Below are positions 25,441 to 43,750 of a stretch of DNA of 64,000 nt, piece after piece. Below the pieces are notes generated by a model that saw only the letters and a program-made list of their open reading frames with translations, was not told where the DNA came from and did not search any database. The position numbers were made by a program, and so were the translations under genes. The number at the start of each line of letters is the position of its first letter. Within the stretch, counting starts at the first letter, position 1. The stretch comes from Sphingorhabdus pulchriflava (GTDB lineage: Bacteria > Pseudomonadota > Alphaproteobacteria > Sphingomonadales > Sphingomonadaceae), in the NCBI RefSeq assembly GCF_003367235.1, contig NZ_QRGP01000001.1, forward strand, positions 372,001 through 436,000, written 5' to 3'.

Positions 25441-25458
25441 TTTAATCGCGCGATTAAA
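25441..25458. promoter_or_regulatory. TTTAATCG-CG-CGATTAAA operator, copy 1
   Basis: TTTAATCGCGCGATTAAA is a perfect 18-bp palindrome in the promoter region of the FMO-P450-hydratase-GST operon. The same arms recur at 39761 and 43733 with different central dinucleotides, as expected for a dimeric TetR-type regulator site and not for a hairpin. Confidence 0.75.
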
Positions 25459-25478
25459 GTCCAGCCCTTAAGCGGGTG

Positions 25479-27713
25479 TCACGAGAAGCTGGCGCCTATC
25501 TGGGCTTTGCTGACCGCGACTTCCAAAAATTGAGGCTTGGTCTTGGGCGGATGGATGAGCACAACATTGCCATTTTTGCCCGAAGGACCCGTTTCAATCC
25601 GCATGCCCGCAGAGGCCAGCGCATAAGGTGACGCTCGGTGCCGGGTGCAAAGGCCACCCGCACCGTCGCTGACCAATGCCGTTTCAAATTCGACAGCAAT
25701 CATCGCCTCTTGCGAGCGATTGACCGTGCATACCACCAATTGACCGCCCGTTAGATCGAGCACGAGCTCGGTACCGACTGGTACGCCCACCAGACCCTCG
25801 ATTCGTGCGCCGGTTTTTGAAAGGTCACGCAGCAAAGCTTCATAACGATGGTCATCATGGATGACGCCGATGCGCCGGTACACCGATCGCCTTTCGGAGC
25901 GGTGCTTTTCCGGACCTTCGGGTTCAATGCTGAATTCGCCTGATTTCATGCGTTCGACGATGACGTCCTGCTTCAGCGCCTTCGAATATATCCAGCCCTG
26001 TATGAAGCGGGCACCCTTTGATTTTACAACCTCGAGCTGATCGAACGCTTCGACCCCTTCGACGGTAACCTCCATACCCAATGCATCCGACAGGCCAATG
26101 ATGGCGGCGATGATCTTATCGCTGTTCTGGTCTTTCTGGGTGCAGCTGTCGACAAAGCTGCGGTCGACTTTCAGCTTGTCAAAAGGCGCGGAACGTAAAT
26201 AGCTGAGCGAAGAATAGCCGGTCCCGAAATCGTCGAGTGCCAGCCGGACGCCAAGTTCTTTTAGTACCTTGAAAGTGGTCTCGACAGTTTCGCTGTCGCC
26301 CATGAAGATGCTCTCAGTCAGTTCCAATTCCAACCGGTTGGGGTCCAGTCCGGATGCATCGAGTGCATGGGTGACTGCGTCTACAAAATCACTATGTGCG
26401 AATTGCGCCGCTGAAACATTGACGGCGACGCGGACCGAGCTTGGCCATTGCATTGCATCCTGACAGGCCTTCACCAGTGCCCATTCGCCAAGCTTGAGGA
26501 TCAGATCGGATTCCTCGGCAACCGGGATGAAAACACCGGGAGCAACATTTCCGCGCTCGGGATGGGTCCAACGCATCAATGCTTCGAACACGACGACCAT
26601 ATTGTCTTCGGTGCGCACGATCGGCTGATAATGCAGCTCCAGTTCCTCATTGGCGAGGGCGTCACGCAAATCTTCTTCGATGATACGGCGTTCCTCGGCT
26701 TCGTCCTTCAGATCGGCCGAGTAGAATCGGAACTGTCCGCGACCGCCATTTTTGGCAGCATAAAGCGCAAGGTCCGAATTGTGGATCAGGTCGTCCTTGT
26801 GGTTGCCGTCATAGGGTGCAACGGCAATGCCAACAGAGGTGCCTATGGTCGCGCGCTTGTCCTCGATAGGATAAGGCTGCGACACCACCTGGATCAGCTT
26901 GTTTGCCAGTTCGCCCAATTTTCCGCGGTCGTCGATATCTGGCAGCAATATCTGGAATTCGTCTCCACCGAGGCGGCCGACTTCCCCTCGCGAACCAATA
27001 ACACGCTCAATGCGTCGCGCGACCTGCCGCAGAAGCTCGTCGCCTGCAGGATGCCCCAACGTGTCGTTAACTTGCTTGAACCGGTCGAGGTCCATCATGA
27101 TCAGCGCACAACTGCGGTTGCCACCCTTATACGATGCCAGCGTTGCCTCGATCCGCTTGTTCATGCGGTGGCGGTTGGCAAGCCCGGTCAGCGAGTCGAA
27201 CTCGGCTAGTCGCGAATCTTCAAGCTGGCGCTGATATTCGACCGTGATGTCCTTGGCCGATCCGCGATAGCCCTGGAACTTCCCTGACTTGTCAAGTTTA
27301 GGATGGCCGGAAATCGACCACCAGATGTGGCGACCTTCATGTTTGGATCGTCCGATTGTTAGCCGTACAGTCAGATCTTTGATCTTGTTATGCGCCGTGA
27401 GCTGAAAATTTAGCGGCCTATCCGATTTTCCACCGGGGCTGTCCGGGTCGGTTTCAAATATTGTAATCAGCGACCGGCCCAAAAGTTCCTCCATCGGAAT
27501 TTCAAGCGTCTGCAATGCGTTGTCGGACAGATAAATCAGTCGGCCATCGGCGTCGGTCGCCCACAACCAGGCAATCCCGGCGCGTTCAAAGTCGTCGACG
27601 ATTTCCAATCGGCGCTGGGCATCGGCTTGGGTGACAACGACAGCGACGACGCTTCCATCTGCCGAATCGGTGTTACCTCCGGTCAGGCTTTTGAAGATGT
27701 TGAGGACTGCCAT
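25479..27713 (-). CDS. PAS-GGDEF-EAL-PilZ cyclic-di-GMP protein
   Basis: A 744-residue soluble signalling protein. Its order is: PAS domain (about residues 40-160, WLWATDADGRLIYLSDNAL), GGDEF domain with intact GGDEF at 249-253, EAL domain with EAL at 377-379, ELTES and DDFGTGYSSL, and a C-terminal PilZ domain from about 605 with RSVYRR and DLSKTGARI. All motifs for making, breaking and binding c-di-GMP are present in one chain. No signal peptide or membrane helix is seen. The start is ATG 27713; a TTG at 27740 is possible. No linked target gene is obvious. Confidence 0.93.
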   Translation of the reverse strand: MAVLNIFKSLTGGNTDSADGSVVAVVVTQADAQRRLEIVDDFERAGIAWLWATDADGRLIYLSDNALQTLEIPMEELLGRSLITIFETDPDSPGGKSDRPLNFQLTAHNKIKDLTVRLTIGRSKHEGRHIWWSISGHPKLDKSGKFQGYRGSAKDITVEYQRQLEDSRLAEFDSLTGLANRHRMNKRIEATLASYKGGNRSCALIMMDLDRFKQVNDTLGHPAGDELLRQVARRIERVIGSRGEVGRLGGDEFQILLPDIDDRGKLGELANKLIQVVSQPYPIEDKRATIGTSVGIAVAPYDGNHKDDLIHNSDLALYAAKNGGRGQFRFYSADLKDEAEERRIIEEDLRDALANEELELHYQPIVRTEDNMVVVFEALMRWTHPERGNVAPGVFIPVAEESDLILKLGEWALVKACQDAMQWPSSVRVAVNVSAAQFAHSDFVDAVTHALDASGLDPNRLELELTESIFMGDSETVETTFKVLKELGVRLALDDFGTGYSSLSYLRSAPFDKLKVDRSFVDSCTQKDQNSDKIIAAIIGLSDALGMEVTVEGVEAFDQLEVVKSKGARFIQGWIYSKALKQDVIVERMKSGEFSIEPEGPEKHRSERRSVYRRIGVIHDDHRYEALLRDLSKTGARIEGLVGVPVGTELVLDLTGGQLVVCTVNRSQEAMIAVEFETALVSDGAGGLCTRHRASPYALASAGMRIETGPSGKNGNVVLIHPPKTKPQFLEVAVSKAQIGASFS

Positions 27714-27892
27714 ATCGTGTCTAATTTCGCTTTGCGCCAAATGGTTGCAATTTGCCTACTTCACCGTTTTCTGTAGGATATTTTGGTTTACGGAACCCTA
27801 ATTTTGCAGAAAATACTTTGGCCGGTCGTCGGCTTAATCGCCCATTTCATGTAAGTATTTCTGGGGGCTTGTCGAAGACGGCAGCCACTGGC

Positions 27893-29038
27893 ATGGCCGT
27901 AAATATGCAGCAGAGTTTTTCGATTTATCCATTCGATCCGCCCGGTGATGTTGCGGCATTGCGAGCCGAGGTCCGCGCCTTTCTTGCCGCGCATGAGCCC
28001 AAGCTCGGCGTTCCTAATTGCTGGGTCGTCGGCGATCCGGAATTTTCCAGTGCTTTGGGTGCGGCGGGTTTCCTTGGGATGATCCTCCCCAAAACGGTGG
28101 GAGGACACGAAAGGCATCCGCTTGAACGCTATGTCGTGATAGAGGAATTGCTCGCGGCGGGAGCACCCGTTGGCGCGCACTGGATTGCAGATCGGCAAAC
28201 TGCACCACTGATTCTGCGCTATGGCAGCGAAGAGGCGAAGACGCGTTACCTGCCCGGTATCTGCAAAGGCCAGTTGTACACCTGTATCGGCCTGTCTGAA
28301 CCTGGTGCAGGGTCGGATCTGGCTGCAGTCCGGACAACTGCCCGTTACACGCTAGACGGCTGGCGCATTTCCGGCCAGAAAATCTGGACCTCGGGCGCGC
28401 ATATGAGCCACGTGATGCTGGCACTGGTGCGCAGTGAAGAGGGCAGTGAGCGCAATGCTGGTCTTTCGCAGTTCCTCATCCCAATGGATGCTCCCGGAAT
28501 TACGATCCGGCCGATTATCGACATGGGTGGCGATCATCATTTCAACGAAGTGTTTTTCGATGACGTGCTTCTACCAGAATGGGCAATGGTCGGCGCCCGG
28601 GGGCAGGGGTGGGCGCAGGCAACAGCGGAGTTGGCGCTCGAACGTTCCGGTCCTGAACGCTATCTTTCCAGCCATGTGTTGATGACCGCATTGATTGATG
28701 CAGCAGGTCCTGATCCGGATCTGCAAATCAAGGGTTTGATAGGCGAGTTGACCGCAGAGCTTTGGACGCTGCGGCAAATGTCGCTTTCGACTGCAGCCAA
28801 GCTGGCAGCCGGTGAAGATCCGATGGTTGAGGCGTCGATGGTCAAGGATTTGGGTAACAGCTTTGAGCAGGCTTTGCCGCAGCGCGTGCAGGCGCTGGTA
28901 GATTGCCCTTCCACCCGTGATGACGACCTTGCGCGGCTGATGCGCGCGCTTTTGATTGCCGCTCCGAGCTTCTCGTTGCGAGGCGGCACGCGTGAAATTA
29001 TTCGCGGTATTATTGCAAGGGGGCTGGGACTCAGATGA
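27893..29038 (+). CDS. Acyl-CoA dehydrogenase, full-length subunit
   Basis: About 381 residues with all three ACAD domains. Motifs are CIGLSEPGAGSDLAAVRT (flavin/substrate region), GQKIWTSGAHMSHVMLALVR and a C-terminal GGTREIIRGIIARGLGL. The usual catalytic Glu before Gly-Thr in the C-terminal loop reads Gly here (RGGT, not YEGT). The Glu in LALERSGPERY is an alternative, as in isovaleryl-CoA dehydrogenase. Starts at 27893 or 27905 are both possible. It overlaps a second, short ACAD gene by ATGA, which suggests a heteromeric enzyme. Confidence 0.85.
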   Translation: MAVNMQQSFSIYPFDPPGDVAALRAEVRAFLAAHEPKLGVPNCWVVGDPEFSSALGAAGFLGMILPKTVGGHERHPLERYVVIEELLAAGAPVGAHWIADRQTAPLILRYGSEEAKTRYLPGICKGQLYTCIGLSEPGAGSDLAAVRTTARYTLDGWRISGQKIWTSGAHMSHVMLALVRSEEGSERNAGLSQFLIPMDAPGITIRPIIDMGGDHHFNEVFFDDVLLPEWAMVGARGQGWAQATAELALERSGPERYLSSHVLMTALIDAAGPDPDLQIKGLIGELTAELWTLRQMSLSTAAKLAAGEDPMVEASMVKDLGNSFEQALPQRVQALVDCPSTRDDDLARLMRALLIAAPSFSLRGGTREIIRGIIARGLGLR

Positions 29039-29754
29039 GCGAACAACGTGCTTTGCTATGCGATACGGCAGAAGCCGTGTTTGCCGAAGCTGCGACGCTG
29101 GGAATGGCTCCCGTTGAAGAGGCCGGGTTTGGTCAGCTTTTGTTAGCGGAAGCAGACGGCGGTTTCGGCGGCGATTGGGGCGATCTGTTTGCTGTGCTGC
29201 GGATTGCGGGTGCGAATGTGCCAAGCATGGCGATTGGCGAGCATATTGTCGGACAATGGCTTGGTGGCGAAGTCACGAAGCCCTATGGAGCTTTCATCCG
29301 CGTGGCGCAGGCCGCAGGCGCGATGGATGCTGCACTAGCGATGAGCATCGACTATGTGAATACCCGCCAGCAATTCGGCAAACCGCTCGGCAAGTTCCAG
29401 GCAGTGCAGCAGGTATTGGCGGTTTTTGCAGTAGAGGCAGCAGCGGTGAATGTAGCAGGCGCTGCAGCGGCCGCCGCACTTGACCGGGCTGCGGGTGATG
29501 CAGAGACCGCCTTATTCGAAATTGCCTGCGCCAAATTGCGGACCAACAAAGCCATTGGGCAGGCCACGGCAATCGCCCACCAAGTGCACGGAGCCATAGG
29601 CTTCACCCGCGAATATGACTTGCACAAGTTGACGGGGCCGTTGCTCGATTGGCGTTCCGACCATGGCAACGACGCCTATTGGGGGAATGTGCTTGGAACG
29701 AAAGTTGCGAAACTGGGCGGTGCGGGTCTGTGGGCCGATATCACTGCACGGTAG
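29035..29754 (+). CDS. Short acyl-CoA dehydrogenase-like subunit lacking the beta domain
   Basis: A 239-residue protein. An ACAD-like N-terminal part (to about residue 85) runs straight into the C-terminal helical domain (NTRQQFGKPLGKFQAVQ, HQVHGAIGFTREYDLHKLT). The middle beta-barrel domain of normal ACADs (near 370-400 residues) is absent. It is coupled to the full-length ACAD by a 4-nt overlap. Heteromeric alpha2beta2 ACADs are known from actinobacterial steroid side-chain degradation, and this pair may be a proteobacterial version. Confidence 0.8.
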   Translation: MSEQRALLCDTAEAVFAEAATLGMAPVEEAGFGQLLLAEADGGFGGDWGDLFAVLRIAGANVPSMAIGEHIVGQWLGGEVTKPYGAFIRVAQAAGAMDAALAMSIDYVNTRQQFGKPLGKFQAVQQVLAVFAVEAAAVNVAGAAAAAALDRAAGDAETALFEIACAKLRTNKAIGQATAIAHQVHGAIGFTREYDLHKLTGPLLDWRSDHGNDAYWGNVLGTKVAKLGGAGLWADITAR

Positions 29755-29778
29755 CTGCTGCAGACATCGTTCACACCG

Positions 29779-30714
29779 CTATCGCATCCGGTGCGCAAAA
29801 AGACCCGGTTGGCGCACGTCAAAAACTTTGGACACTGTGCAAGTAAGCTTATCTTTTTTGCAAGATAAATTCATCGCCTGTTCGGCTCGTTTTTCGGTTT
29901 GATCTGCTGTGAAACTGTCGCCTTTGTCTGTGCGATAGCTGTACAGAAAGCCATTGCCGGTTCCCATACTCACCTCACATTTTGCATCGGCACCATTGTG
30001 CTTTCGGCATGCTGCTAAAGCCGCATCAACGGCTTCTGGATAGGTTGCATGGCCGGTTGCAACAAATGATGTGCCGTCATAGCCCGGTCCCATAAGCCAC
30101 GCGACAGCACCATATCTTTTCCGCAAAAGTGCGGCATTTTTGGGTTTGCGGATGTTAATCCACTGACCATCGCTTTCGTAAGTATCGGTCGATTTGAAAA
30201 TGCCGATAGGCAGGCAACCAAGAACATAGCCTTTGCATTGTTCATCCAGCAGCTTCTTCACTTTGCTTTTGCTACCGTCGGCTGCCCAGTGGATATTCCC
30301 GGTGGCACCTAGTGCTGCGCCAATATATCCGTTCACCTGCCAAATAACCTGACAGCCCGAGCCCATCACTTCGGTGCAGTGACGCAGGGCCATATTGTCG
30401 GCAGCAGCGCGTTCTTGGTACCTCGCTGATGCCCAGACATCGTTCGCATCCTGATGCCAGGCGACCGCTGAATAGTCATTCCTTGCAGGAGCAGGAGGCG
30501 CCGCCTGTTGCGGTGCCGAATTGGGATCATCTTCACACATTGGAACAGAAGCTACGCCATTTCCGCCGGGGCTCATCCCGACCATGATCCGGCCAGGCCC
30601 CGGCCCGTTGCACGGATAGGCAAAGGCAGCGGCTGGTTCTGACGACAATAGTACGGACAGACAAAAAACGGCGAAAGTGCAAAGAGCGATGCTCAAACGG
30701 TTTAGCATGATCAT
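29779..30714 (-). CDS. Secreted DUF4189-type protein
   Basis: A 311-residue exported protein. A signal peptide ends about EPAAA-FAYP, a Pro/Gln-rich linker follows, and then come two DUF4189-like units: YSAVAWHQDANDVWASARYQERAAAD near residues 80-105 and YGAVAWLMGPGYDGTSFVATGHATYPEA near 200-228. Each is followed by paired cysteines (LRHCTEVMGSGCQVIW; AACRKHNGADAKCEVS). The function of DUF4189 is unknown. It is convergent with the short ACAD gene. ATG 30708 is an alternative start. Confidence 0.7.
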   Translation of the reverse strand: MIMLNRLSIALCTFAVFCLSVLLSSEPAAAFAYPCNGPGPGRIMVGMSPGGNGVASVPMCEDDPNSAPQQAAPPAPARNDYSAVAWHQDANDVWASARYQERAAADNMALRHCTEVMGSGCQVIWQVNGYIGAALGATGNIHWAADGSKSKVKKLLDEQCKGYVLGCLPIGIFKSTDTYESDGQWINIRKPKNAALLRKRYGAVAWLMGPGYDGTSFVATGHATYPEAVDAALAACRKHNGADAKCEVSMGTGNGFLYSYRTDKGDSFTADQTEKRAEQAMNLSCKKDKLTCTVSKVFDVRQPGLFAHRMR

Positions 30715-30854
30715 CCAGAAAATAGAGAAATCCGGCTTTCAAGATACGGCAGAACCGCAAATCGCGCCGCCACTTTTGCGCACTAGTTCATCTTTACAAC
30801 GCACATTACAGGCCCTAGTCGCGCAGGCCTGAATTCAGACATTGGAGTTTCCCC

Positions 30855-31982
30855 ATGCGCGCCGAAGCGCAAGCCTTGGTCGACCGGATCGACGCCGCCC
30901 TAAACCTTGTCAAAATGTCGCTCGATTGGGACCGCGCCTTGCGTCGCCTCGACGAGCTGAACGCACGCGTCGAAGACCCGACTTTGTGGGACAATCCCAA
31001 AAAGGCCGAAGAGGTGATGCGCGAACGGCGCCGTCTCGATGCGGCCATTGCAACTGTTCGGGAAATCGATGCTGACAAGGTTGGTACAGTCGAATTGATC
31101 GAGCTTGCCGAGATGGAAAGCGATGAGGCTTTGGCCGACGAAGGCGTTGCCGCACTTGCGGCACTCGCCGACAGGGCGGACAAGGACAAGGTTTCGGCCC
31201 TCTTGTCGGGTGAAGCCGATCCGCTTGATACCTTCATCGAAATCCACGCAGGCGCAGGGGGTACGGAAAGCCAGGATTGGGCAGAAATGCTGTTCCGCAT
31301 GTATACACGCTGGGCGGAAAAGCGCGGCTTTAAGGTCGATACCATCGAGTATCAGGCAGGCGATACCGCAGGAATAAAGGCGGCGACTATCCAGGTCAAA
31401 GGCGAGAATGCGTACGGCTATGCAAAGACCGAAAGTGGTGTGCACCGGCTCGTGCGCATATCGCCCTATGACAGCTCTGCACGGCGGCACACCAGTTTCA
31501 GCTCGGTCTGGGTATACCCTGTTATCGACGACAGTTTTGAAATCGATATCAATCCCGCTGACCTGAAAATCGATACCTACCGTGCGTCGGGTGCAGGTGG
31601 TCAGCACGTTAACACGACCGATTCTGCAGTACGCATTACTCACGTCCCTTCGGGCATAGTCGTCGCCAGCCAGGTTGACCGCAGCCAGCACAAGAACCGC
31701 GAAATTGCGATGGGTATGCTCAAGGCGAGGATGTACGAAGCGGAAATGCGCAAGCGCGAAGAAGCGGCCAGCGCTGAACATGCTGCCAAGACCGATATCG
31801 GCTGGGGGCACCAGATTCGTTCTTACGTCCTGCAGCCCTATCAAATGGTCAAGGATCTGCGCACTGGCGTCACCAGCCCGACACCCTCGGATGTGCTCGA
31901 TGGCGATCTTGATGCGTTCATAGCAGCGGCGCTGGCTCAGCGGGTGACGGGTGAGGCTGTCGCGATTGAGGATGTCGACTAA
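30855..31982 (+). CDS. prfB: Peptide chain release factor 2
   Basis: A 375-residue RF2 that ends translation at UAA and UGA. The catalytic GGQ is at residues 248-250 (SGAGGQHVN). The stop-codon recognition tripeptide, SPF in E. coli, reads SPY at 203-205 (RISPYDSSARRHTSF). The gene is one continuous frame with no CUUUGA slippery stop, so it lacks the autoregulatory frameshift of enterobacteria. Confidence 0.96.
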   Translation: MRAEAQALVDRIDAALNLVKMSLDWDRALRRLDELNARVEDPTLWDNPKKAEEVMRERRRLDAAIATVREIDADKVGTVELIELAEMESDEALADEGVAALAALADRADKDKVSALLSGEADPLDTFIEIHAGAGGTESQDWAEMLFRMYTRWAEKRGFKVDTIEYQAGDTAGIKAATIQVKGENAYGYAKTESGVHRLVRISPYDSSARRHTSFSSVWVYPVIDDSFEIDINPADLKIDTYRASGAGGQHVNTTDSAVRITHVPSGIVVASQVDRSQHKNREIAMGMLKARMYEAEMRKREEAASAEHAAKTDIGWGHQIRSYVLQPYQMVKDLRTGVTSPTPSDVLDGDLDAFIAAALAQRVTGEAVAIEDVD

Positions 31983-32101
31983 GCTGTAAATCGCTTGGCA
32001 GTGTACTAGCACAGCCCCAGCTATTGCATTGGTTATAGTGTATGAGCGACACTATACAGTGGATTCTCCTGCCAATCATGGCTGGTTCCCAAGGTATTAC
32101 C

Positions 32102-32683
32102 ATGCACTTCAAAGCCGTCATTTTTGCCTGTTCCATTTTCTGCTGCACCAGCGCTGTCCAAGCCCAGTCCGCGCTGGATGCGCAGCTTGCCAAGGCGATG
32201 AAGCCTTTTGAATCCAAAGGTCAGCAGCATGTGGGCAAGCCAGACGGCAAACCTGCTGCTGCGGCACAACCTGGCTGGAGCGTCGACAATGACGGGAGCA
32301 AGGCGGATCAGCCTTGCGGAATGACATTTGCGGCACCCGGCAAGGTAATGGGCTATATAGGGCCGTATAAGGACTGGAAGGACAGCTATTTCTTTGTCGG
32401 TGGGCCGGAAGTGCCAGCAACGGCGAAAGTCAAAAAGGTAAAGGTCACGCTTGCGACTGGCGGTGATAGCCCGCAGACGGTAAAGGCAATGCACTTTCCG
32501 GTGAAAAACGGGGCACCTGTCATACTGTTCCAATTGACCAACTTCGCAGCGGCGCTTGATGGTTTGGACGATGTCGAGAGCGTTTCGGTAACGATGAACG
32601 GCGCATCGGTCTTTGATGGCAATTGGACTGGCGGCTTTGCAGCGCGCGAGAAAGTGCGCGCCTGCCTTCTGAAGGCTCAGTGA
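32102..32683 (+). CDS. Exported protein, unknown
   Basis: A 193-residue protein with signal peptide MHFKAVIFACSIFCCTSAVQA before QSALDAQL. The mature part has only two cysteines (QPCGMTF and RACLL), which may form a disulfide, and a beta-rich look (GPEVPATAKVKKVKVTLATG, FQLTNFAAALDG). I recognise no family. The ATG at 32102 is chosen because it begins the signal peptide; the open frame runs back to 32042. It is followed after 18 nt by another exported unknown and may form an operon with it. Confidence 0.6.
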   Translation: MHFKAVIFACSIFCCTSAVQAQSALDAQLAKAMKPFESKGQQHVGKPDGKPAAAAQPGWSVDNDGSKADQPCGMTFAAPGKVMGYIGPYKDWKDSYFFVGGPEVPATAKVKKVKVTLATGGDSPQTVKAMHFPVKNGAPVILFQLTNFAAALDGLDDVESVSVTMNGASVFDGNWTGGFAAREKVRACLLKAQ

Positions 32684-32701
32684 TTTCTGAAGGCTGGGCG
32701 A

Positions 32702-33892
32702 ATGCGTAATTGGGCTTCTAGGCGATTTGCGGCTGGACCATGTTCCGCCTTCGCGTTGATGGTATGCATCGGATTTTGTCTGGTGCAGCCTTTACAGGCT
32801 CAGCAGGTTGTGCCGAGCGACAAGGAAGTTAAAGAGCTGGCCAAGCGCCGGGCAGCTGCAGAATGCAAGGATGCTATTTTCAAGAAGGATTGTCGAAAGG
32901 CCGAAGCGCAGACGTTGCAGGCGGCCAATGAGATCGACAAGATTTTCCCGCTCGCGCTGAAAGAAGGCAAGGCGATTGTGGCCATCGCTACGCTCGATAT
33001 GGGCTATAAATACCCCGATGCCCCGTCATGGGAGAACAATCTTGCGGACCATGTTACTGATACCGGAACATCGGTTGCGGTCGAACTGGGTACCACGGTT
33101 GAATGGCGCAATATTGCGCAGTCGGACAAAAAGCTGATCGTCGGTGAGGAGCGGCCGTTTGCAAAAGTGGGCGGCTCGGGATTTCTGCTGGAACTGCCGG
33201 GCAAAGGCCCGGTCAAATATCAGGTCTATATTGTCGATCCCGGTACTTACCGGTTGAGCCGTATCACCCATCCCATGCCCCGGACGAGCTTGCCCGTCGC
33301 TGATGGAACCGCTTCCGTCGACAAATCCTATGTCGGAAGTGTCGACCTAACCGAAACCATTTTCAACGAGACAAAGTTTGAGTCTCAATGGTTCAATGAG
33401 CAATGGTCGACGCGCCCACCCTATCAGGAGTGCGCCGCGGTGCATGTCACTGCGGGCTGCGTCGAGCTGCGCTGGGTCTATGGCGAGGAATATATCTCAC
33501 GCGAGGCGGGATATTATGACGTCTCTGTTGCCGTGCCGGCACCCGGACTGAATGTCGGCATAGGCATTAACGGTGAATTCGCCTCTTTTTCGGTTCAGGC
33601 CAGTGAAGCGATCGTCGTCGATGGATTTTTCCCGCAGCCGCCAAATACGCGCTTTTCGACCGCCGATTGCGAAAAAACGGATACCAAGTCGATGGTATGT
33701 GACATTGAAGCGGTCGACCTCTTGTATCTGCCGGCGTCCTCCGATGTCCTGCATAGCCACGACTATTCGACCATCGGCATGCCGCGTTTCAACCAGATAA
33801 TTGGCAAAGCACAACTCCGCCCGCTCGACATAAAGGCGCGTCCTGTTTCGAAAAGCGAGCTTGGAGCAATCTATCAATTGGCCGCAAATTGA
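32702..33892 (+). CDS. Exported protein, unknown
   Basis: A 396-residue protein with a signal peptide (hydrophobic residues 14-30, ending QPLQA-QQVV), a charged helical stretch (KEVKELAKRRAAAECKDAIFKKDCRKAEAQ) and a long beta-type body. Cysteine pairs occur in CAAVHVTAGC and around CEKTDTKSMVC. I do not recognise a domain. It is second of three consecutive plus-strand exported proteins (32102-35089) between prfB and a minus-strand pair, with spacings of 18 and 54 nt. Confidence 0.55.
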   Translation: MRNWASRRFAAGPCSAFALMVCIGFCLVQPLQAQQVVPSDKEVKELAKRRAAAECKDAIFKKDCRKAEAQTLQAANEIDKIFPLALKEGKAIVAIATLDMGYKYPDAPSWENNLADHVTDTGTSVAVELGTTVEWRNIAQSDKKLIVGEERPFAKVGGSGFLLELPGKGPVKYQVYIVDPGTYRLSRITHPMPRTSLPVADGTASVDKSYVGSVDLTETIFNETKFESQWFNEQWSTRPPYQECAAVHVTAGCVELRWVYGEEYISREAGYYDVSVAVPAPGLNVGIGINGEFASFSVQASEAIVVDGFFPQPPNTRFSTADCEKTDTKSMVCDIEAVDLLYLPASSDVLHSHDYSTIGMPRFNQIIGKAQLRPLDIKARPVSKSELGAIYQLAAN

Positions 33893-33946
33893 GGCCGTAT
33901 CCCGATGGCGCGGTTTCGCCAGAACTGAAAAGTCAGGTAACTGAAA

Positions 33947-35089: not shown

Positions 35090-35101
35090 GCAGCGTTGGA
35101 A

Positions 35102-35632: not shown

Positions 35633-36138
35633 GGAAGCACCAAAGTCGTATCTTGTGCGACAAAGGCGTTGATGATTTCGCCAGCCTTGATTTTTGCGTT
35701 GTTACCTCTGTGGAACAATCCTGCGACGCCTGCAAAAATCACCGCAGCTCCGGCTGATCCTGCGCCGGTGCCTTTGGTGCTGATTTCACCTTCGAGAGGT
35801 ATCTTGTTCGAACCATATTCAAGATAGAGCAGTCGCGCGGACATTTTTCCGGATTTTCCAAGGCCGCCAGAATCTGTCGCTGAAACAACTTCCCCATGCG
35901 CCCATGTTCCAACCGGGATGGTCAAACCTTCGGCGATAATCACAGGCTTGTTAAGGCGCAGTTTGAAACGCGTCCCAGCGGTAACATCTGCCGTACTGAC
36001 TTCTTTGGTTGCCATCAATTCGACTGGTGTATCGATACGGATAACAGCGGGTGCAACAACTACAGTCTCTGATGGAGCTGCTACTGCTGGCGCAGTCTCC
36101 CCTATGTCCTGAACCAACATTGCAAGTATGACTAGCAT
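35629..36138 (-). CDS. Exported protein, tandem paralogue
   Basis: A 169-residue protein. The ATG at 36138 has AGGGGGAG upstream and starts a short hydrophobic leader (MLVILAMLVQ) with a possible signal-peptide end at APAVAA-PS; the open frame runs back further without need. The body parallels the downstream gene: TAGTRFKLRLNKPVIIAEGLTIPVG, then GTWAHGEV and GLGKSGKM. It is first of the two-gene minus-strand operon and divergent from 36269. Confidence 0.58.
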   Translation of the reverse strand: MLVILAMLVQDIGETAPAVAAPSETVVVAPAVIRIDTPVELMATKEVSTADVTAGTRFKLRLNKPVIIAEGLTIPVGTWAHGEVVSATDSGGLGKSGKMSARLLYLEYGSNKIPLEGEISTKGTGAGSAGAAVIFAGVAGLFHRGNNAKIKAGEIINAFVAQDTTLVLP

Positions 36139-36268
36139 CCTGGAACTCCCCCTATCCCAGCCTCGCCACTTCGGACGATTCGAATTATTACCTGCCGTTA
36201 CTCTAAGCGATTGACTCGAAGTTGAAAACAATCATGGATTGAGCGAGTATCAATACAGGGAGGCAAAA

Positions 36269-36697
36269 ATGAAAGCAGTAAAATACGCCATAGTAGGCGC
36301 GCTTATCGTGACTGCGGGTGCACAGGCGGGACTCGCAAAGAAAAAGGAAGAAAAGACGTTCGTTGTTGTCAACGAAGATGTTGGCCTTCCGGTTTTTGCT
36401 TATGATATCACTGATCGCCCCTATGAAGTCGTAGGTGAGGTTCAGGCTGGTGTCCGCAAAGCGACGGTGTTCAGCAAGGAAGCCAGTCAGGAAAAAATCT
36501 ACAAGGAATTGTGGGAACGGGCAGAGAAGCTGGGTGCCGATGCTGTAATCAACGCCAAATATGGTGACAGCCATGTTTCGGCATTCAGCTGGGGCAAAAC
36601 CAATGCCACGGGAACTGCAATAAAGTTCAAGCCGATTCCTACAGTTGATGCAGCGGCACCGGCGGCGGACGCGGCTGCTGCCCCAACACAGCCCTAA
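36269..36697 (+). CDS. Small exported protein with YbjQ-like segment
   Basis: A 142-residue protein. The ATG at 36269 follows GGGAGGC and begins a signal peptide (MKAVKYAIVGALIVTAGAQA). The central part, LWERAEKLGADAVINAKYGD, resembles the helix-strand unit of the YbjQ/heavy-metal-binding-domain family (A-x2-LGA-[DN]-AV). The tail is Ala/Pro-rich (about residues 122-142). It lies divergent from the paralogue pair and is closed by a strong hairpin at 36723. Confidence 0.6.
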   Translation: MKAVKYAIVGALIVTAGAQAGLAKKKEEKTFVVVNEDVGLPVFAYDITDRPYEVVGEVQAGVRKATVFSKEASQEKIYKELWERAEKLGADAVINAKYGDSHVSAFSWGKTNATGTAIKFKPIPTVDAAAPAADAAAAPTQP

Positions 36698-36722
36698 ATT
36701 TTCCCGTAAAGTTCAAGATGGT

Positions 36723-36753
36723 GGCCAGCAGGCATATCCCATGCCTGCTGGCC
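36723..36753. terminator. 13-bp perfect hairpin between convergent genes
   Basis: GGCCAGCAGGCAT and ATGCCTGCTGGCC form a perfect stem with a 5-nt loop. It lies between the plus-strand gene ending at 36697 and the minus-strand SDR ending at 36762. It probably works as a terminator in both directions, although the T-tracts are weak. Confidence 0.7.
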
Positions 36754-36761
36754 GTTTCACT

Positions 36762-37544
36762 TTAGTCCCCCGGCGACGCCGCGCTTCCAGCGAGTAATCC
36801 GCCATCTAAGTGCAATTCGCTGCCGGTCATATAGGTCGCATCATCGGATGCCAGCAGCAGGGCCAGCGCAGCGACTTCTTCAACCGTGCCAAAGCGCTTC
36901 ATAGGTGTATCTGCCACCATCGCGGCCATCCGCGCCTCGCGATCGGGGCCGTCACCTATCAAAGCTTCCCACATCGGGGTCAGGATGGCCGCCGGGTGGA
37001 TCGAGTTGCAGCGGATGTTGAGGCCCTGCTGCGCGCAGTAGAGCGCAACCGATTTGCTATGGTTGCGGATAGCTGCCTTCGATGAAGCATAAGCCGCAGC
37101 CGCCGGTATTCCGACGAGGCCGGAACGCGATGAAATGTTGATGATCGCGCCAGCGCCTTTTGCGCGCATTGCTCCGATCGCATAGCGGCAGCCAAGAAAC
37201 GTCCCGTCCAGATTGACCGCATGCACGCGGTGCCAATCGGCTAGGCTGGAATGCTCGGGGTCGTGCGGGCCGGGTGAATCCTCGAATCCGGTAATGCCGG
37301 CATTGTTGACGACAATGTCTATCTGGGGATGGGAGGCGGCCAAGCGGTTCCATCCACTCTCGTCGGCGACGTCGAGTTCGAAATAGGTGCCGCCAATTTC
37401 GTCAGCGACGCGCCGACCATTTTCGCTATCGATATCGGCGATGACCACGCTCGCGCCTTCGCGGGCGAAGCAACGGGTAATCGCTTCGCCGATACCGCGG
37501 GCACCCCCGGTCACGAGGGCGGATTTATTCTGTAATTTCGGCAT
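36762..37544 (-). CDS. Short-chain dehydrogenase/reductase
   Basis: A 260-residue classical SDR with NAD(P) motif TGGARGIG near residues 13-20, NNAG, the catalytic Ser (ISSRSG), YASSK (Tyr/Lys pair) and a C-terminal [13 protein letters not shown]. An Asp in VVIADID after the second strand suggests NAD preference. The ATG at 37544 has AAGGA upstream. Close relatives are bile-acid/steroid or cyclic-alcohol dehydrogenases, but the substrate is not fixed. It is divergent from acs. Confidence 0.88.
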
Positions 37545-37556
37545 GGGTAGTCCTTG

Positions 37557-37568
37557 CAATTCGAATTG
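37557..37568. promoter_or_regulatory. 12-bp palindrome before the SDR gene
   Basis: CAATTCGAATTG is a perfect inverted repeat 12 nt upstream of the SDR start, next to its ribosome site. It could be a repressor site; at 12 bp it may be chance. Confidence 0.3.
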
Positions 37569-37586
37569 AGTAATTGGGATGTTACT

Positions 37587-37671
37587 CGTCATCCCTGCGG
37601 AGGCAGGGCCAACTCCTGTTATTGCAAATTGAGCAGTAGGAGACTGGATTCCCGGCTTCGCGGGAATGACG
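37587..37671. repeat. REP-like inverted doublet in acs leader
   Basis: Two related palindromic units in opposite orientation: one starts CGTCATCCCTGCGGAGGCAG at 37587, and the other ends TTCGCGGGAATGACG at 37671 (37643-37671). Each has its own small hairpin. They fit the BIME-like intergenic repeats common in sphingomonads, whose reverse-strand translation gives the familiar [11 protein letters not shown] peptide. Confidence 0.75.
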
Positions 37672-37754
37672 AAAAAATGGGATTACTCTTGAATCACCGG
37701 ACTTACTCCACCAATGCTGAAAGCGTAGATAGCCCGATTGTCTGGAGAGAGCAA

Positions 37755-39716
37755 GTGAGCGAGCATCAGGATTGGTTCCCCGTCCCCGAAAGTGCGACCA
37801 AAGACACGCATTGCAGCGCAGCAGATTATAACCGCCTATATACCGCGAGCATATCCGATCCTGACAGCTTTTGGGCCGAACAGGCCAAGCGCATCGACTG
37901 GTTCACCGCGCCGACGAAAGTGGGCAACTGGTCCTACGATCCGGTCTCGATCAAATGGTATGAAGATGGCGTCCTGAACCTCTGCCACAACGCCGTCGAT
38001 CGCCATGTGGCCGCAGGCAAGGGCGATGCGATCGCTTTCATCTTCGAACCCGATGAGCCATCAAAGCCCTCGCGCAAGGTCAGCTATGCCGCGTTGCAGG
38101 CCGAGGTAATCCGCATGGCGAACACGCTGAAGAAAATGGGCGTGGCCAAGGGTGACAGGGTTACCATTTACATGCCGATGGTGGTCGAGGGTGCGGTGGC
38201 GATGCTCGCTTGCGCACGCATCGGGGCGATCCATTCGGTGGTGTTCGGCGGCTTCTCACCTGAGGCCTTGGCGGGCCGTATTGAGGATTGCGCCAGCCGC
38301 TTCGTGATCTGCGCCGATAGCGGCCTGCGCGGCGGAAAGCATGTACCCCTCAAGGCCAACGTCGATGCGGCGCTGGAGCGTGTGTCGGGTGTCGAAGGCG
38401 TGCTGGTGATCGAACATACCGGCGATCCCTGCAACATGACGCCGCATCGCGATCATTGGTATCACGAATATGGCGCGGATGTGCCCAGCGAATGCCCGTG
38501 TGAGCCGATGAATGCGGAGGATCCGCTGTTCATACTCTACACCTCGGGCAGTACTGGAAAGCCCAAGGGCGTTTTGCACACAATCGGTGGCTATTCGGTC
38601 TGGACCGCGACCACCTTCCATTATGTGTTCGATTACAAACCGGGAGAAGTCTTCTTCTGCTCTGCCGATATCGGCTGGGTCACTGGCCACTCTTATGTCG
38701 TCTATGGTCCGCTGCAAAATGGCGCGACCAGCCTGATTTTCGAGGGTATCCCCAGCTACCCCGACAATGGCCGATTCTGGGACATTGTCGACCGGCATCA
38801 GGTCAACATTTTCTACACCGCGCCAACTGCACTGCGCGCGCTGATGCGTGATGGCGATGCGCCGGTGAAGGCGCGCAGCCGCAAATCGCTGCGCTTGCTT
38901 GGTACAGTGGGAGAGCCGATCAACCCCGAGGCCTGGCGCTGGTACCATGCGACAGTGGGAGAGGGGAAACTACCCATCGTCGATACATGGTGGCAGACCG
39001 AAACCGGCGGGACGATGATCACCACGCTGCCCGGTGCGCACGGGATGAAACCGGGTAGCGCAGGACGCCCCTTCTTCGGCATCCGCCCGCAGCTTGTCGA
39101 TGCCGAGGGGCAGGTGATTGCAGATGAAGGCGATACGCGCGGCGATGTCTCGGGCAATTTGTGCATCACGCACAGCTGGCCGGGGCAGGCACGCACCGTC
39201 TATGGCGATCATGAGCGTTTCGAGCAGACCTATTTCTCGACCTATAAGGGCAAATATTTCACCGGCGATGGATGTCGCCGCGATGGTGATGGCTATTGGT
39301 GGATAACCGGCCGGGTCGACGATGTGATCAACGTATCGGGCCACCGCATGGGCACCGCCGAGGTCGAAAGCGCGCTTGTGTTGCACGACAAGGTGGCCGA
39401 GGCCGCAGTCGTCGGCTTTCCTCATGAGATCAAGGGGCAGGGCATCTATTGCTATGTCACGCTCAACGCTGGCGAGGAGCCGGGCGCTGAGTTGGAGAGC
39501 GAGCTGCGGATGCAGGTGCGTCAGGAAATCGGCCCGATTGCATCACCCGACCATATCCATTTCACCCCCGCTCTGCCCAAGACCCGCAGCGGCAAGATCA
39601 TGCGCCGCATCCTTCGCAAGATTGCCGAAAACGACTTCGGCGCATTGGGAGATACCTCGACCTTGGCCGACCCCAGCGTGGTCGATAGCCTGATTGAGGG
39701 GCGCAAAAACCGCTAA
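37755..39716 (+). CDS. acs: Acetate--CoA ligase (acetyl-CoA synthetase)
   Basis: A 653-residue AMP-forming acyl-CoA synthetase. The adenylate loop [14 protein letters not shown], the TWWQTETGG motif, and the C-terminal TRSGKIMRR with regulatory Lys about 614 (the Lys acetylated in Acs) are all present. Its length matches E. coli Acs when the GTG at 37755 is used, which follows GGAGAG. The open frame upstream only translates the REP doublet. Propionate ligase is a less likely alternative. It is divergent from the SDR gene. Confidence 0.93.
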
Positions 39717-39760
39717 CCCGAACTGGCGGCTTGTCGATAGCCTTAGGAGCGGTTATGGCC

Positions 39761-39780
39761 GTTTAATCGCACGATTAAAC
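39761..39780. promoter_or_regulatory. TTTAATCG-CA-CGATTAAA operator, copy 2
   Basis: GTTTAATCGCACGATTAAAC is a 20-bp element with 9-bp perfect arms, ending 11 nt before the CoA-transferase ATG. It lies directly against the GGAGAGAGAG ribosome site, so a bound regulator would block transcription of that gene. Confidence 0.78.
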
Positions 39781-39791
39781 GGAGAGAGAGC

Positions 39792-40931
39792 ATGTCCACT
39801 CGCAAAGGGCCACTGAACGGCGTCAAGGTTATTGAACTCGCAGGGATCGGCCCCGGCCCCTATACTGGCCAGCTGCTGGCAGACATGGGCGCGGATGTGA
39901 TCGTTGTTGATCGTCCCGGCCCGGCTTTGCCAAAGGCCGTGGACGGTCGCGGCAAACGCTCGATCATGCTCGATCTCAAAAAGCCTGAGGCAGTCGAGGC
40001 GCTCCTCAAGATGGTTGCCAGCGCCGATGTGCTGATCGAAGGTCTGCGTCCAGGCGTTACCGAGCGGATGGGTGTAGGCCCTGAAGCCTGCCACGCCGTC
40101 AATCCAAAGCTGATCTATGGTCGCATGACCGGATGGGGCCAGACCGGCCCATGGAGCCAGATGGCAGGCCATGACATCAACTATATCAGCATGACTGGCG
40201 TTTTGAACGCAATCGGCAAGGCAGGACAGCCACCGGTGCCGCCGCTCAACATGGTCGGTGATTTCGGCGGGGGCACGATGTTCCTCGTCACTGGCATTCT
40301 CGCAGCCGTTGTCGAGCGCGCGACCACGGGTAAGGGCAATATCGTCGATGCCGCGATCATCGACGGCACGCACAGCTTGATGAGCTTTGTCCACGGTATG
40401 GCGGGGCTCGGTCAATGGCGCACCGATCGCGAGGCAAACCTTCTGGACGGAGCTGCACCCTTCTATCGTTGCTATGGAACCAGCGACGGTAAGTTCGTCG
40501 CTGTCGGTTGCATCGAACCGCAATTTTTTGCCGCGATGATGGAGCGCCTCCCTATCGACAAGGAAGCCTATGGCGGCCAGCATGACCAGTCCAAATGGGC
40601 GCAACAGCATAAGATGTTGGAAGAGGTGTTTGCTTCGAAGACCCGCGATGAGTGGGAGGCGATTTTTGCGCTGACCGACGCCTGCGTTACGCCAGTGCTC
40701 GATTATGTCGAAGCTGCGTCGCACCCGGCCAATGCAGAGCGCAAGGCGGTGGTGAAGGACGGCAAATGGCTGCACCCGCAAATCGCGCCGCGTCTGTCGA
40801 GCCAGACACAGGCCGACAGCTTCACTATCGCGTCACGTGGTGGCGACTATGCCGCTGTGCTGGGCGAAGCCGGGCTTGCTGCTTCGGACATCGAAACGCT
40901 GGTTTCGGGTGGCTCTGTCGTGACCGGCTAA
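39792..40931 (+). CDS. CaiB/BaiF family protein, alpha-methylacyl-CoA racemase-like
   Basis: A 379-residue class III CoA-transferase-fold protein. H127, D157 and E242 have exactly the spacing of the catalytic H126, D156 and E241 of mycobacterial MCR (GHDINY, GDFGGG, CIEPQF). This favours racemase function: epimerising 2-methylacyl-CoA so that branched chains can enter beta-oxidation. It starts 11 nt after operator copy 2. A bidirectional terminator separates it from the convergent TonB receptor gene. Confidence 0.88.
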   Translation: MSTRKGPLNGVKVIELAGIGPGPYTGQLLADMGADVIVVDRPGPALPKAVDGRGKRSIMLDLKKPEAVEALLKMVASADVLIEGLRPGVTERMGVGPEACHAVNPKLIYGRMTGWGQTGPWSQMAGHDINYISMTGVLNAIGKAGQPPVPPLNMVGDFGGGTMFLVTGILAAVVERATTGKGNIVDAAIIDGTHSLMSFVHGMAGLGQWRTDREANLLDGAAPFYRCYGTSDGKFVAVGCIEPQFFAAMMERLPIDKEAYGGQHDQSKWAQQHKMLEEVFASKTRDEWEAIFALTDACVTPVLDYVEAASHPANAERKAVVKDGKWLHPQIAPRLSSQTQADSFTIASRGGDYAAVLGEAGLAASDIETLVSGGSVVTG

Positions 40932-40952
40932 GATCACTGTCCAAGGCAAAGA

Positions 40953-40986
40953 AAAGGGCCGGCCTCCATATGGAGACCGGCCCTTT
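40953..40986. terminator. Bidirectional terminator
   Basis: AAAGGGCCGG and CTCCA pair with TGGAG and CCGGCCCTTT around a short loop, with one mismatch. The A-rich and T-rich flanks suit both directions. It closes both the CoA-transferase gene (plus) and the TonB receptor gene (minus). Confidence 0.85.
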
Positions 40987-41003
40987 CTGTTATGTGTTGT
41001 CTA

Positions 41004-43595
41004 TCAGAACTTGGCGCGCACGGTCAGGCCGTACATGCGGGGTTCTTCGACGAAACCAATGCGTGAGCGCGTGCCAGCACCGCCACGGAGCGGGGTGTTG
41101 GCGGTGATGCCGCGGGTGATTTCGTTCGACAGGTTGGTGCCCCAAAGTTCGAAGGTGAAGCGCTCATCGGGCGTCGTCAGGCCGATACGCGCATTCATCT
41201 TGAAATAGGCATTCTGGTAATCGAACGGCACTGGCAGTCCGTTGGTGTCCAGCGGAATGGTGCTGGTGCGACGCTTGCTCGAATAGTTGATGTTGCCGTT
41301 GACCAGCAGGCCCCAACCCGAGCTATCAAGCGGACCGTCATAGGTCAGCCCCATGACACCCGAGAATTTGGGTGCGTTAGTCAGGCTGCCACCACAGAGA
41401 CGGGCAACCGCTGCTGCAGCAGCAGGCGCAACGCCTACACCGCAGTTGCTCGGATAACGTGAGTCTGCGTAGGTCATGGCGACGTTACCGGTGATGTAAT
41501 CGCTCAAGCTGCCAAAGACTTCGAGTTCCGCACCCGTCGAACGTGCCGAGTTTACGTTGAAGGTGAGGAACTGGATGCCGGTAAATTCCAGCACCTGGAA
41601 GTCGCTCATCTTCATGTCAAACACGGCAAGGTTAGCCTTGAAGCGACCGAGCGTCGCTTTCACACCAACTTCGATCTGGTCAACCTTTTCAGACTTGAAC
41701 GAAGGGTCGGCATATTGCGGAGCAACAATAACCGGAGTCGGTTGTGCAAGACCGGCAAGGATCGCCGACGAGTTCAGCAGGTTCGCCGAAGTGGCATCGA
41801 GGTTGAAACCGCCCGATTTGAAACCGTGGCTGTAACCGGCATAAAGCAGGACATCGTCCGAAGCTTTGAAGCCGAGCTGGGCCGTATAGGTGATTTCATC
41901 ATCCTTGAACGTCTGCGCCCATTCGCGCGGCAGCGGCAACAGGCGGCTGGCAAGACCACCACCCAGTGCTGCCGGAGCGGTCAGGTTGACCGGAGCGACA
42001 AACGGGAAGCAGTTGAGGCCGACCAGGCCCGGTGCCAATGCGCCAGGAACCAATCCATTGAGGACGCCCGTGACGCTTGCCTGGCAAGCCGCGTTCGACG
42101 CTGACAACTGGTCAAAGCTTGCGACCTTCTTCTCGTCGACATAACGCGCGCCGAGCGTCAGGCTCAACCGGTCGGTGAAGTTGATCACATTGTGGGTGAA
42201 CACCTAGAATGTGGTCGCTTCCTGATCAAACAGGTTGACCGCATTGGCACCGTTAGAGTTGACCGGAATGCCGCCATTGCCAAGCGCTGTCAGCGCGAAC
42301 AACGGGTTTACTCCGGCAGCAGGACCGAAGTTGAAGGCGCTGTTGGCACGCTGGAAATCCGCACCGAGTGTCATCACGCCCTGCGCTTCAATCTTTTCCT
42401 TGCCGTAAAAGCCGCCGATTAGCCAGTCGAGCTTGTCGTTGAATGCAGTGCCCTGCAAACGCAGTTCCTGTGTAAAGGCCTTGATGTTGTCGCCATTGGG
42501 CGGCGTGCCGGGAGCGGCAGTTACACCCTTGGTACCAACCGAGTAAATCTGCAGACCAACAAAATCGTCCTGGCTCGATTGCGACTGGAAGTCACGATAA
42601 GCGGTGATCGAGGTCAGTTTGGCACCGCCAAAGTCCCACTTCAACTCACCCGAGACACCCCATTGTTTGGAACTGTTCAGATATTGCTGCCCATTGGTGG
42701 ACAGGTTCTGCAGCGCAGGGCGGCCGACTTGGTCGATACCGTCGCTTGTCAGGCCGTGGAATGCAAAGAATGGCTGCAGTTCTGTTTCCCGCATGACAAC
42801 GGCATCGCAGCATTTTTCGTCGACCTTCGAATAATCGGCGAGGATGCGGATGCTCACGTCTGAGTTGGGCTCAACATAGAGCTGGCCACGCAGCATGTAA
42901 CGATCACGATCGTTGCTGGTTGCGCCGGTTGCGCTTTTCAGGAAGCCATCGCGCTTGCGCCATGTGCCCGATACACGGACAGCGGCTACATCCTGTGCAA
43001 TCGGAACGCTGACACCCGCCTGCACATTCATGAAGTCGTAATTGCCGTAAGAGGCGTTGGCAAAGCCTTCGAACTCGCTCAGGCTCGGGCGACGCGTTGT
43101 GATGTTCAACGCACCTGCCGAGGTGTTACGACCGAACAGCGTGCCTTGCGGGCCACGCAGAATTTCCAGACGCTCAAGATCAACAAGATCGCCGAGGGCC
43201 ACGCCGGGGCGCGACTGGTAGACGCCGTCAATAAAAACGCCGACAGAGCTTTCGAGCCCGGTATTGTTACCAGTGGTGCCTACTCCGCGGATCTTGATCG
43301 AGGTACCTTGCGTTTCAGTTTGCGAAGACTGGATATTAAAGCTCGGCGAAATCGAAGCCAGATTCTTGATGTCGGCAACGCCCTGACGCTCAAGCGTTTC
43401 GGGGGCGACAGCGGTCACCGCGATTGGAATGTCCTGCACATCCATCGCACGCAGGGTTGCGGTAACGATGATGGGTTCATTTTCGTAGGATTCTTCCTCG
43501 GCCTGCGCGTCCTGCGCATAAGCTGGCGCGAAACCGAATGTCGCGAGCATGGTTGAACTGAGTGCAATTGCACTGAGTCGATTCAATCGACGCAT
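41004..43595 (-). pseudogene. TonB-dependent receptor interrupted by an in-frame TAG
   Basis: One reading frame of 863 codons encodes a complete TonB-dependent outer-membrane receptor, except for a TAG at 42204-42206 (codon 464). The N-terminal part has a signal peptide ending APAYA-QDAQ, a TonB-box region, the plug (VGVFIDGVYQSRPG, LEILRGPQGTLFGRNTSAGALN) and early barrel strands. After TAG the same frame goes on at once as VFTHNVINFTDRLSLTLGARY and ends in the aromatic barrel terminus VRAKF. No frameshift is seen. A Trp (TGG) or Gln (CAG) codon could have mutated, or the base may be a sequencing error. The promoter region has two palindromes (43608 and 43733). Confidence 0.85.
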
Positions 43596-43607
43596 GTACC
43601 TCTCCTT

Positions 43608-43621
43608 AGTTTACGTAAACT
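43608..43621. promoter_or_regulatory. 14-bp palindrome at the TonB receptor ribosome site
   Basis: AGTTTACGTAAACT is a perfect palindrome 13 nt before the receptor ATG, overlapping the start of its AAGGAGAGG ribosome site. It is a TetR-like operator candidate that differs from the TTTAATCG-type element upstream. Confidence 0.5.
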
Positions 43622-43732
43622 GTGCCTGCCGTATGCCGGTCTGGGCGTTTGAATTTGCTTCCTTGACGGATTCTCCCGGGGATAATTGGAAACAGTGTAC
43701 TTACTAAGCAGCGGATTTTCCATGCCCACAGC

Positions 43733-43750
43733 TTTAATCGTTCGATTAAA
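43733..43750. promoter_or_regulatory. TTTAATCG-TT-CGATTAAA operator, copy 3
   Basis: TTTAATCGTTCGATTAAA has 8-bp perfect arms. It lies in the 206-nt gap between the divergent TonB receptor (start 43595) and fused E1 (start 43802) genes, 51 nt from the E1 start and 137 nt from the receptor start. It may control either or both. Confidence 0.75.

Follow-up and report, generated by a model that had tools for sequence, protein, structure and literature searches.

The DNA considered here is a 64,000-nucleotide stretch of the Sphingorhabdus pulchriflava genome (contig NZ_QRGP01000001.1, positions 372,001 to 436,000; G000:C1:372001-436000 in our numbering of genomes and contigs, part of a 3.22-Mb genome), which we call, at its full length, the window; our subject is a palindrome, TTTAATCG-NN-CGATTAAA, that occurs in it three times. 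A first-pass annotation had described these copies as having identical 8-bp arms and differing centres (CG, CA and TT), and the pattern is exact at all three reported places; the wider limits given for the second copy, 39761-39780, are fair, as the palindrome by eye reaches 39760-39781. The sites and the genes that they adjoin are as follows.

25441..25458, no strand: predicted operator 1, TTTAATCGCGCGATTAAA, centre CG; 5' of the FMO gene, whose start is 45 bp away
39762..39779, no strand: predicted operator 2, TTTAATCGCACGATTAAA, centre CA; 5' of the CaiB/AMACR-like gene, 12 bp from its start codon
43733..43750, no strand: predicted operator 3, TTTAATCGTTCGATTAAA, centre TT; between divergent starts, E1 at 51 bp and the TonB receptor at 137 bp
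24034..25395, minus strand: FMO-like flavin-binding monooxygenase, first gene of its operon (PF00743, 238 bits)
22801..24030, minus strand: cytochrome P450, CYP153-related, FMO operon (PF00067)
21921..22796, minus strand: enoyl-CoA hydratase/isomerase, FMO operon (PF00378)
20929..21915, minus strand: GST-like protein, FMO operon (PF13417)
39792..40931, plus strand: CaiB-type CoA-transferase family III protein, AMACR-like (PF02515, 265 bits)
42204..43595, minus strand: TonB-dependent receptor, N-terminal plug part (PF07715)
41004..42203, minus strand: TonB-receptor frame, C-terminal barrel part (PF00593, 121 bits, profile positions 177-436)
43802..45997, plus strand: fused 2-oxoacid dehydrogenase E1, alpha and beta parts (PF00676, PF02779, PF02780)

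When up to three mismatches are allowed, the window still yields only these three matches, all of them exact, against a chance expectation of 0.11 (standard deviation 0.35); three were reached in none of 100 shuffles, and a chance repeat is ruled out by the window shuffles together with the genome-wide and order-wide scans. All three sites are intergenic by our own gene calls, which agrees with the earlier placement of each copy in a promoter region, and Pfam upholds the names given to the target genes (FMO-like, p450, ECH_1, GST_N_3, CoA_transf_3, Plug and E1_dh/Transketolase). In the PDB, CYP153-named chains rank second and third among the matches of the P450 (CYP153D17 at 400 bits, CYP153A7 at 343 bits). 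An in-frame TAG at 42204-42206 splits the TonB-receptor frame 41004-43595 (minus strand), reflecting either natural inactivation or an assembly error.

Two further features lie close to these sites. A gene encoding a PAS-GGDEF-EAL-PilZ protein, of the cyclic-di-GMP type by its domains, occupies 25479-27713 on the minus strand, directly upstream of operator 1 and on the same strand as the FMO operon. A second perfect palindrome, AGTTTACGTAAACT, stands at 43608-43621, just 5' of the TonB-receptor start, with about 110 bp separating it from operator 3. No other copy occurs in the window even at two mismatches (chance 0.05), and the palindrome may be the site of another regulator.

Scanning the full genome reveals recurrence on the scale of a regulon, well beyond three promoters. 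At up to one mismatch there are 20 sites, 10 of them exact, and none for a reversed-pattern control; at up to three mismatches there are 35, against 10 for the control. Genes were called with a simple, purpose-written hexamer caller rather than a standard tool, and the intergenic counts refer to 452 kb of own-genome stretches picked around sites (two of them overlapping), of which 91% was called coding. The first-pass annotation had named frequent occurrence inside coding regions as an observation that would count against a regulatory role; all 10 exact sites and 30 of the 35 at up to three mismatches are intergenic. So are 8 of the 10 one-mismatch sites, the exceptions (loci L024 and L031) falling at 5' ends that were probably called too long, and two three-mismatch sites lie inside genes (L018:2087 and L034:16173). 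Every exact site stands 12-87 bp before a start, and a start codon is 12-90 bp away for 24 of the 26 sites with at most two mismatches.

The sites are dispersed over three contigs with their arms fixed, as they might also be if the palindrome were a repeat, a methylation site or an element with a structural or chromosome-maintenance role. We regard that explanation as exceedingly improbable, and a methylation or structural element was set aside by reasoning: the copies are restricted to intergenic DNA near the starts of metabolically related genes, they have scant sequence in common past 18-20 bp, they are linked to one operon (below), and the palindrome, by eye, holds no GANTC.

The families of the target genes, assigned with Pfam and NCBIfam, give the regulon its character. 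Outside the three window promoters, the first genes behind sites with at most two mismatches, followed by related genes behind several three-mismatch sites, include these.

L018, L020, L022, L025, L030, L036: acyl-CoA dehydrogenases
L017: AMP-dependent CoA-ligase
L021, L023, L029, L035: SDRs and thiolases
L031: enoyl-CoA hydratase, then an Oxidored_FMN/Pyr_redox protein
L029: aldehyde dehydrogenases and a PQQ dehydrogenase
L019, L026: nitroreductases
L028: MpaB/Lcp-type oxygenase
L027: TonB receptor, as in the window
L016: DUF1330 gene
L024: DUF7065 gene
L032: amidohydrolase
L034: GntR-type regulator
Three-mismatch sites: acyl-CoA dehydrogenase (L040), CoA-ligase (L041), GMC oxidoreductase (L042), P450 (L032)

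The predicted regulated set is acyl-CoA beta-oxidation, with a possible supply side made up of oxygenases, CoA-ligases and TonB receptors. Sites are crowded at one place in particular, where three fall within 9.2 kb (L029:5001, 12177 and 14205; G000:C2:658171-667392) and precede two aldehyde dehydrogenases, one PQQ dehydrogenase and one thiolase.

The genome has 24 TetR_N matches, all of them outside the window, in keeping with the proposal that the regulator is encoded elsewhere, and the gene that we put forward sits on another contig.

G000:C2:323424-324062, minus strand: candidate TetR, last gene of the operon thiolase-SDR-enoyl-CoA hydratase-TetR

The first-pass annotation had suggested looking for a TetR gene with a motif copy of its own, and the first gene of this operon begins 20 bp downstream of an exact copy; the palindrome is found both in the promoter of the candidate's own operon and in those of the targets. 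The N-terminus of the protein is a TetR_N helix-turn-helix (PF00440, 27.1 bits, cut-off 24), within which GLNSALVKYYFGNK is invariant across 19 orthologs, and the C-terminus matches PF14514 TetR_C_9 at 190 bits (cut-off 25.3). A second site, with three mismatches, lies directly 5' of the TetR gene itself; we keep it out of the claim because only 3 of 80 TetR loci from named genomes have one. We consider it likely, on sequence grounds, that TTTAATCG-NN-CGATTAAA is the operator of this one TetR-family regulator. What we observe is the motif: where its copies lie, how they recur and are conserved, and how they co-occur and are linked with the TetR gene. The regulon scan, the C2 operon and its orthologs all support the earlier idea of one TetR-like repressor over all three window promoters, the word repressor being suggested by the position of the sites.

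Linkage is a stronger line of evidence for this assignment than the distribution of motif and protein among genomes. Among the best 80 of 277 TetR-encoding loci, all taken from named genomes, 66 have more than 3.3 kb of upstream sequence, and a site with at most three mismatches occurs within 4.5 kb 5' of the TetR gene in 64 of these (at most one mismatch in 50/66; control 0/66); for 59 of those 64 loci the distance from site to TetR gene is 2.9-3.2 kb. When ortholog loci were mapped with the four operon proteins, the site was found just 5' of the first operon gene, a thiolase or SDR, in 14 of 17. De novo analysis of the operon-promoter region of 56 loci returned the same element, with TTTAATCG as top 8-mer (43 loci, against 0.4 in shuffles) and TTAATC-N4-GATTAA as top dyad (33/56 loci, none in shuffles); the next 8-mer, ATATAGGC, lies by eye within a conserved gene start. 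Information falls off beyond the 18 bp; a weak signal extends by one base at either side and some precedes the site, as judged from base counts that are biased by the mismatch limit used in choosing sites. Of 51 operon promoters, 50 have TTGAC placed 14-16 nt ahead of the site.

The wider distribution points the same way. We searched 196 genomes of the order for the motif (at most one mismatch) and for the TetR protein, and found a close TetR ortholog (243-461 bits, 56-100% identity) in 23, every one of which has the motif. Among the other 173, of which 15 have weaker relatives only, four (G061, G074, G093 and G100) show one 1-mismatch match each, a rate near that of the reversed-pattern control (3/196). 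Common ancestry accounts for part of this co-occurrence.

Within the genus we sampled 41 genomes, finding orthologs of E1 in 39, of CaiB in 38 and of the FMO in 5, and examined up to 350 bp upstream of 30, 30 and 5 of them, respectively. A site with at most three mismatches is present in 60 of these 65 promoters, against none for the reversed control; the arms, whose loss from orthologous promoters had been named beforehand as a point that would count against the proposal, are thus kept in 60/65. All five FMO promoters have the site, as do 29 of 30 CaiB promoters, the remaining one having just 6 bp of upstream DNA, and 26 of 30 E1 promoters. One genome of the 41, G056, has no TetR match and yet has three motif sites; its thiolase ortholog, preceded at 25 bp by a three-mismatch site, is truncated where a 3,800-base contig ends, and since the operon start is cut by the contig end, the TetR gene probably falls in an assembly gap.

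A number of observations weigh against the assignment. At the three window sites, a consensus promoter scan returned nothing for sigma-70. The DUF1330, DUF7065, nitroreductase and amidohydrolase targets fit beta-oxidation poorly, as does a LytB gene within whose called 5' end a two-mismatch site falls (L033). The E1/TonB site is absent, or present only at four mismatches, in G049, G046, G042 and G001, and since these misses are all in close relatives, the site was gained or lost recently. TetR paralogs at L168 (G033) and L343 (G039) have a nearly identical recognition helix, NSALIKYYFGNK, in genomes without the motif, and the helix alone therefore does not predict the operator. The 23 motif-bearing genomes may be one clade, and a clade-wide profile would suit any clade-specific regulator: a control TetR (L016:7156-7800), which adjoins the site at C1:653458, is likewise confined to motif-bearing genomes when a high score is demanded (at least 231 bits: 15 of the 23, 0 of the 173 others), so that the profile is not enough by itself to pick out the C2 protein. 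A small GntR-type gene (PF00392, L034:6057-6398) begins 38 bp after a two-mismatch site (G000:C1:1274087) and may either belong to the regulon or rival TetR. Lastly, three loci, L215, L248 and L335 (G155), encode a TetR ortholog with no site at up to three mismatches nearby; in these, tblastn found no usual operon partner in the L215 and L248 stretches and only the SDR in that of L335.

Taken together, the orphan TetR loci, the other regulators near sites and the clade-wide profile leave room for the palindrome to be the true operator of another transcription factor, of which the C2 TetR gene would be merely a target with a different operator of its own. We judge this unlikely. Of the three regulators in question, only the C2 TetR is seen to keep its operon site across many genomes, and it does so even where the operon is without thiolase or hydratase. 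It is also present in all 23 genomes with above-chance motif, whereas the L016 TetR, found in 49 of the 196 genomes at E <=1e-10 (many of them without the motif), is missing at that threshold from four of the 23 (G152, G155, G184 and G221); mainly through these absences, the profile disfavours it as the regulator. Finally, the palindrome spans 18 bp and its 2-bp centre is free, a form that suits a TetR dimer.

A sharing of the operator among several TetR paralogs, under which the window promoters need not obey one protein, is very unlikely. The genome does hold many TetR_N domains, and three matches to the query occur in each of G148, G193 and G216, but the 40 genus genomes with any match, our own included, have one each (E <=1e-10). 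Moreover, the paralogs of G198 and G199 have a different recognition helix (NHGMIRYYF versus NSALVKYYF) and lie beside a different palindrome, ATTATCA-N4-TGATAAT, at L342:5700 and 6409 (G199) and L344:4005 (G198); none of 200 shuffled pairs of these two stretches shares a dyad. This suggests a sister regulon with another operator around the G198 and G199 paralogs. The L343 and L168 proteins are distant TetRs of another family; that of L343 is encoded near an SDR that is 72% identical to the operon SDR, and no site with up to three mismatches occurs there.

Among solved structures, PDB 2qtq/2rha ('Transcriptional regulator, TetR family') match the C2 TetR at 296 bits (E 1.3e-87, residues 14-212) and contain the GLNSALVKYYFGNK stretch unchanged; judged by sequence, the C2 protein is probably their ortholog. 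We take 2qtq/2rha to be Saro_0558 of Novosphingobium aromaticivorans. Among the literature matches listed, none gives a function for the pair: both codes appear in one phasing-software paper, and Saro_0558 in none. If that identity is right, the protein is missing from the 44 factors covered by an N. aromaticivorans DAP-seq set (PMC12352068). Nor do the titles and abstract openings among the matches listed mention this motif or regulon, a weak indication that no such paper exists.

A survey that covered 196 proteobacteria and 33 groups of regulators (PMC5343134) names FadR, PsrA and FadP for fatty-acid degradation and notes that a transcription factor gene tends to be a core member of the regulon it controls. 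FadP is there described as betaproteobacterial only, a description that sets it apart from our case. PsrA and FadP resemble the system proposed here in being TetR proteins with a fatty-acid degradation regulon over many operons (PMC5343134); the present regulon differs in also taking in a P450, an FMO, an MpaB/Lcp-type oxygenase and TonB receptors. Identity with known regulators was rejected by NCBIfam models, which score the C2 TetR far below their cut-offs: 27.2 bits against 300 for PsrA (NF053516), 32.5 against 200 for the Bacillus-type FadR, and 41.4 against 368 for RutR. FadR of Bacillus and Thermus is a TetR repressor of beta-oxidation that is released by acyl-CoA. It is the closest functional analogue for the mechanism that we propose. 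The C2 TetR shows a weak match, of 28.6 bits, to PDB 3whb ('Fatty acid metabolism regulator protein'), and the operator of the Bacillus/Thermus protein is unlike TTTAATCG-NN-CGATTAAA.

A further comparison is EdcR, which represses estradiol degradation in Caenibius tardaugens and is likewise a sphingomonad TetR acting on a catabolic cluster; its operator is proposed to overlap the -10 box, and a weaker autoregulation is proposed as well (PMC8700777). EdcR-type control is ruled out by a different operator, TnnCnnTACnAnTnGTAnnGnnA, and a different C-terminal domain, EdcR having TetR_C_11 and being described for one cluster, whereas the C2 protein has TetR_C_9 and a genome-wide regulon (PMC8700777). 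For the bile-salt genes of C. tardaugens, a 2026 paper proposes other palindromes for another TetR (PMC12882949). The regulon described here is probably new, and its regulator is probably one of a familiar kind rather than a new type of system.

Direct binding, repression and an acyl-CoA ligand are steps that we infer. The TetR dimer would sit on the two 8-bp arms of the operator, TTTAATCGNNCGATTAAA, and in the promoters of the TetR operon, given the conserved TTGAC at 14-16 nt, it would occupy the place of the -10 box. The TTGAC spacing and the placement of sites close before starts together suggest a repressor; with the operator over the -10 region and the start codon, in nearly all cases, 12-90 bp off, binding should block RNA polymerase. 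The simplest proposal for a ligand is an acyl-CoA, because the targets include beta-oxidation genes and the TetR gene shares its operon with a thiolase and a hydratase. Acyl-CoA formed from substrate would most likely release TetR from the DNA, and uptake, activation and beta-oxidation would then increase jointly; being encoded behind its own operator, the repressor would cap its own level through autoregulation.

In the broadest terms, we propose tentatively, and with slightly less than even confidence, that the TetR_C_9 protein of the 2qtq/2rha group holds a role of the FadR/PsrA/FadP type in Sphingorhabdus, Novosphingobium, Blastomonas and nearby genera. It would be a ligand-released acyl-CoA master switch coupling outer-membrane uptake, oxygenase attack, CoA activation, alpha-methylacyl racemisation and beta-oxidation over about 25 operons (35 sites less the 10 expected), with the specificity of paralogs having diverged along with the recognition helix.

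The analysis proposes which operator, regulon and role belong to a TetR group that has a solved structure, and it yields a shortlist of apparently co-regulated, unassigned genes, those for DUF1330, DUF7065, APH-type, nitroreductase and MpaB-type proteins. It also predicts how degraders such as Novosphingobium may turn on the catabolism of fatty acids, hydrocarbons and related compounds.

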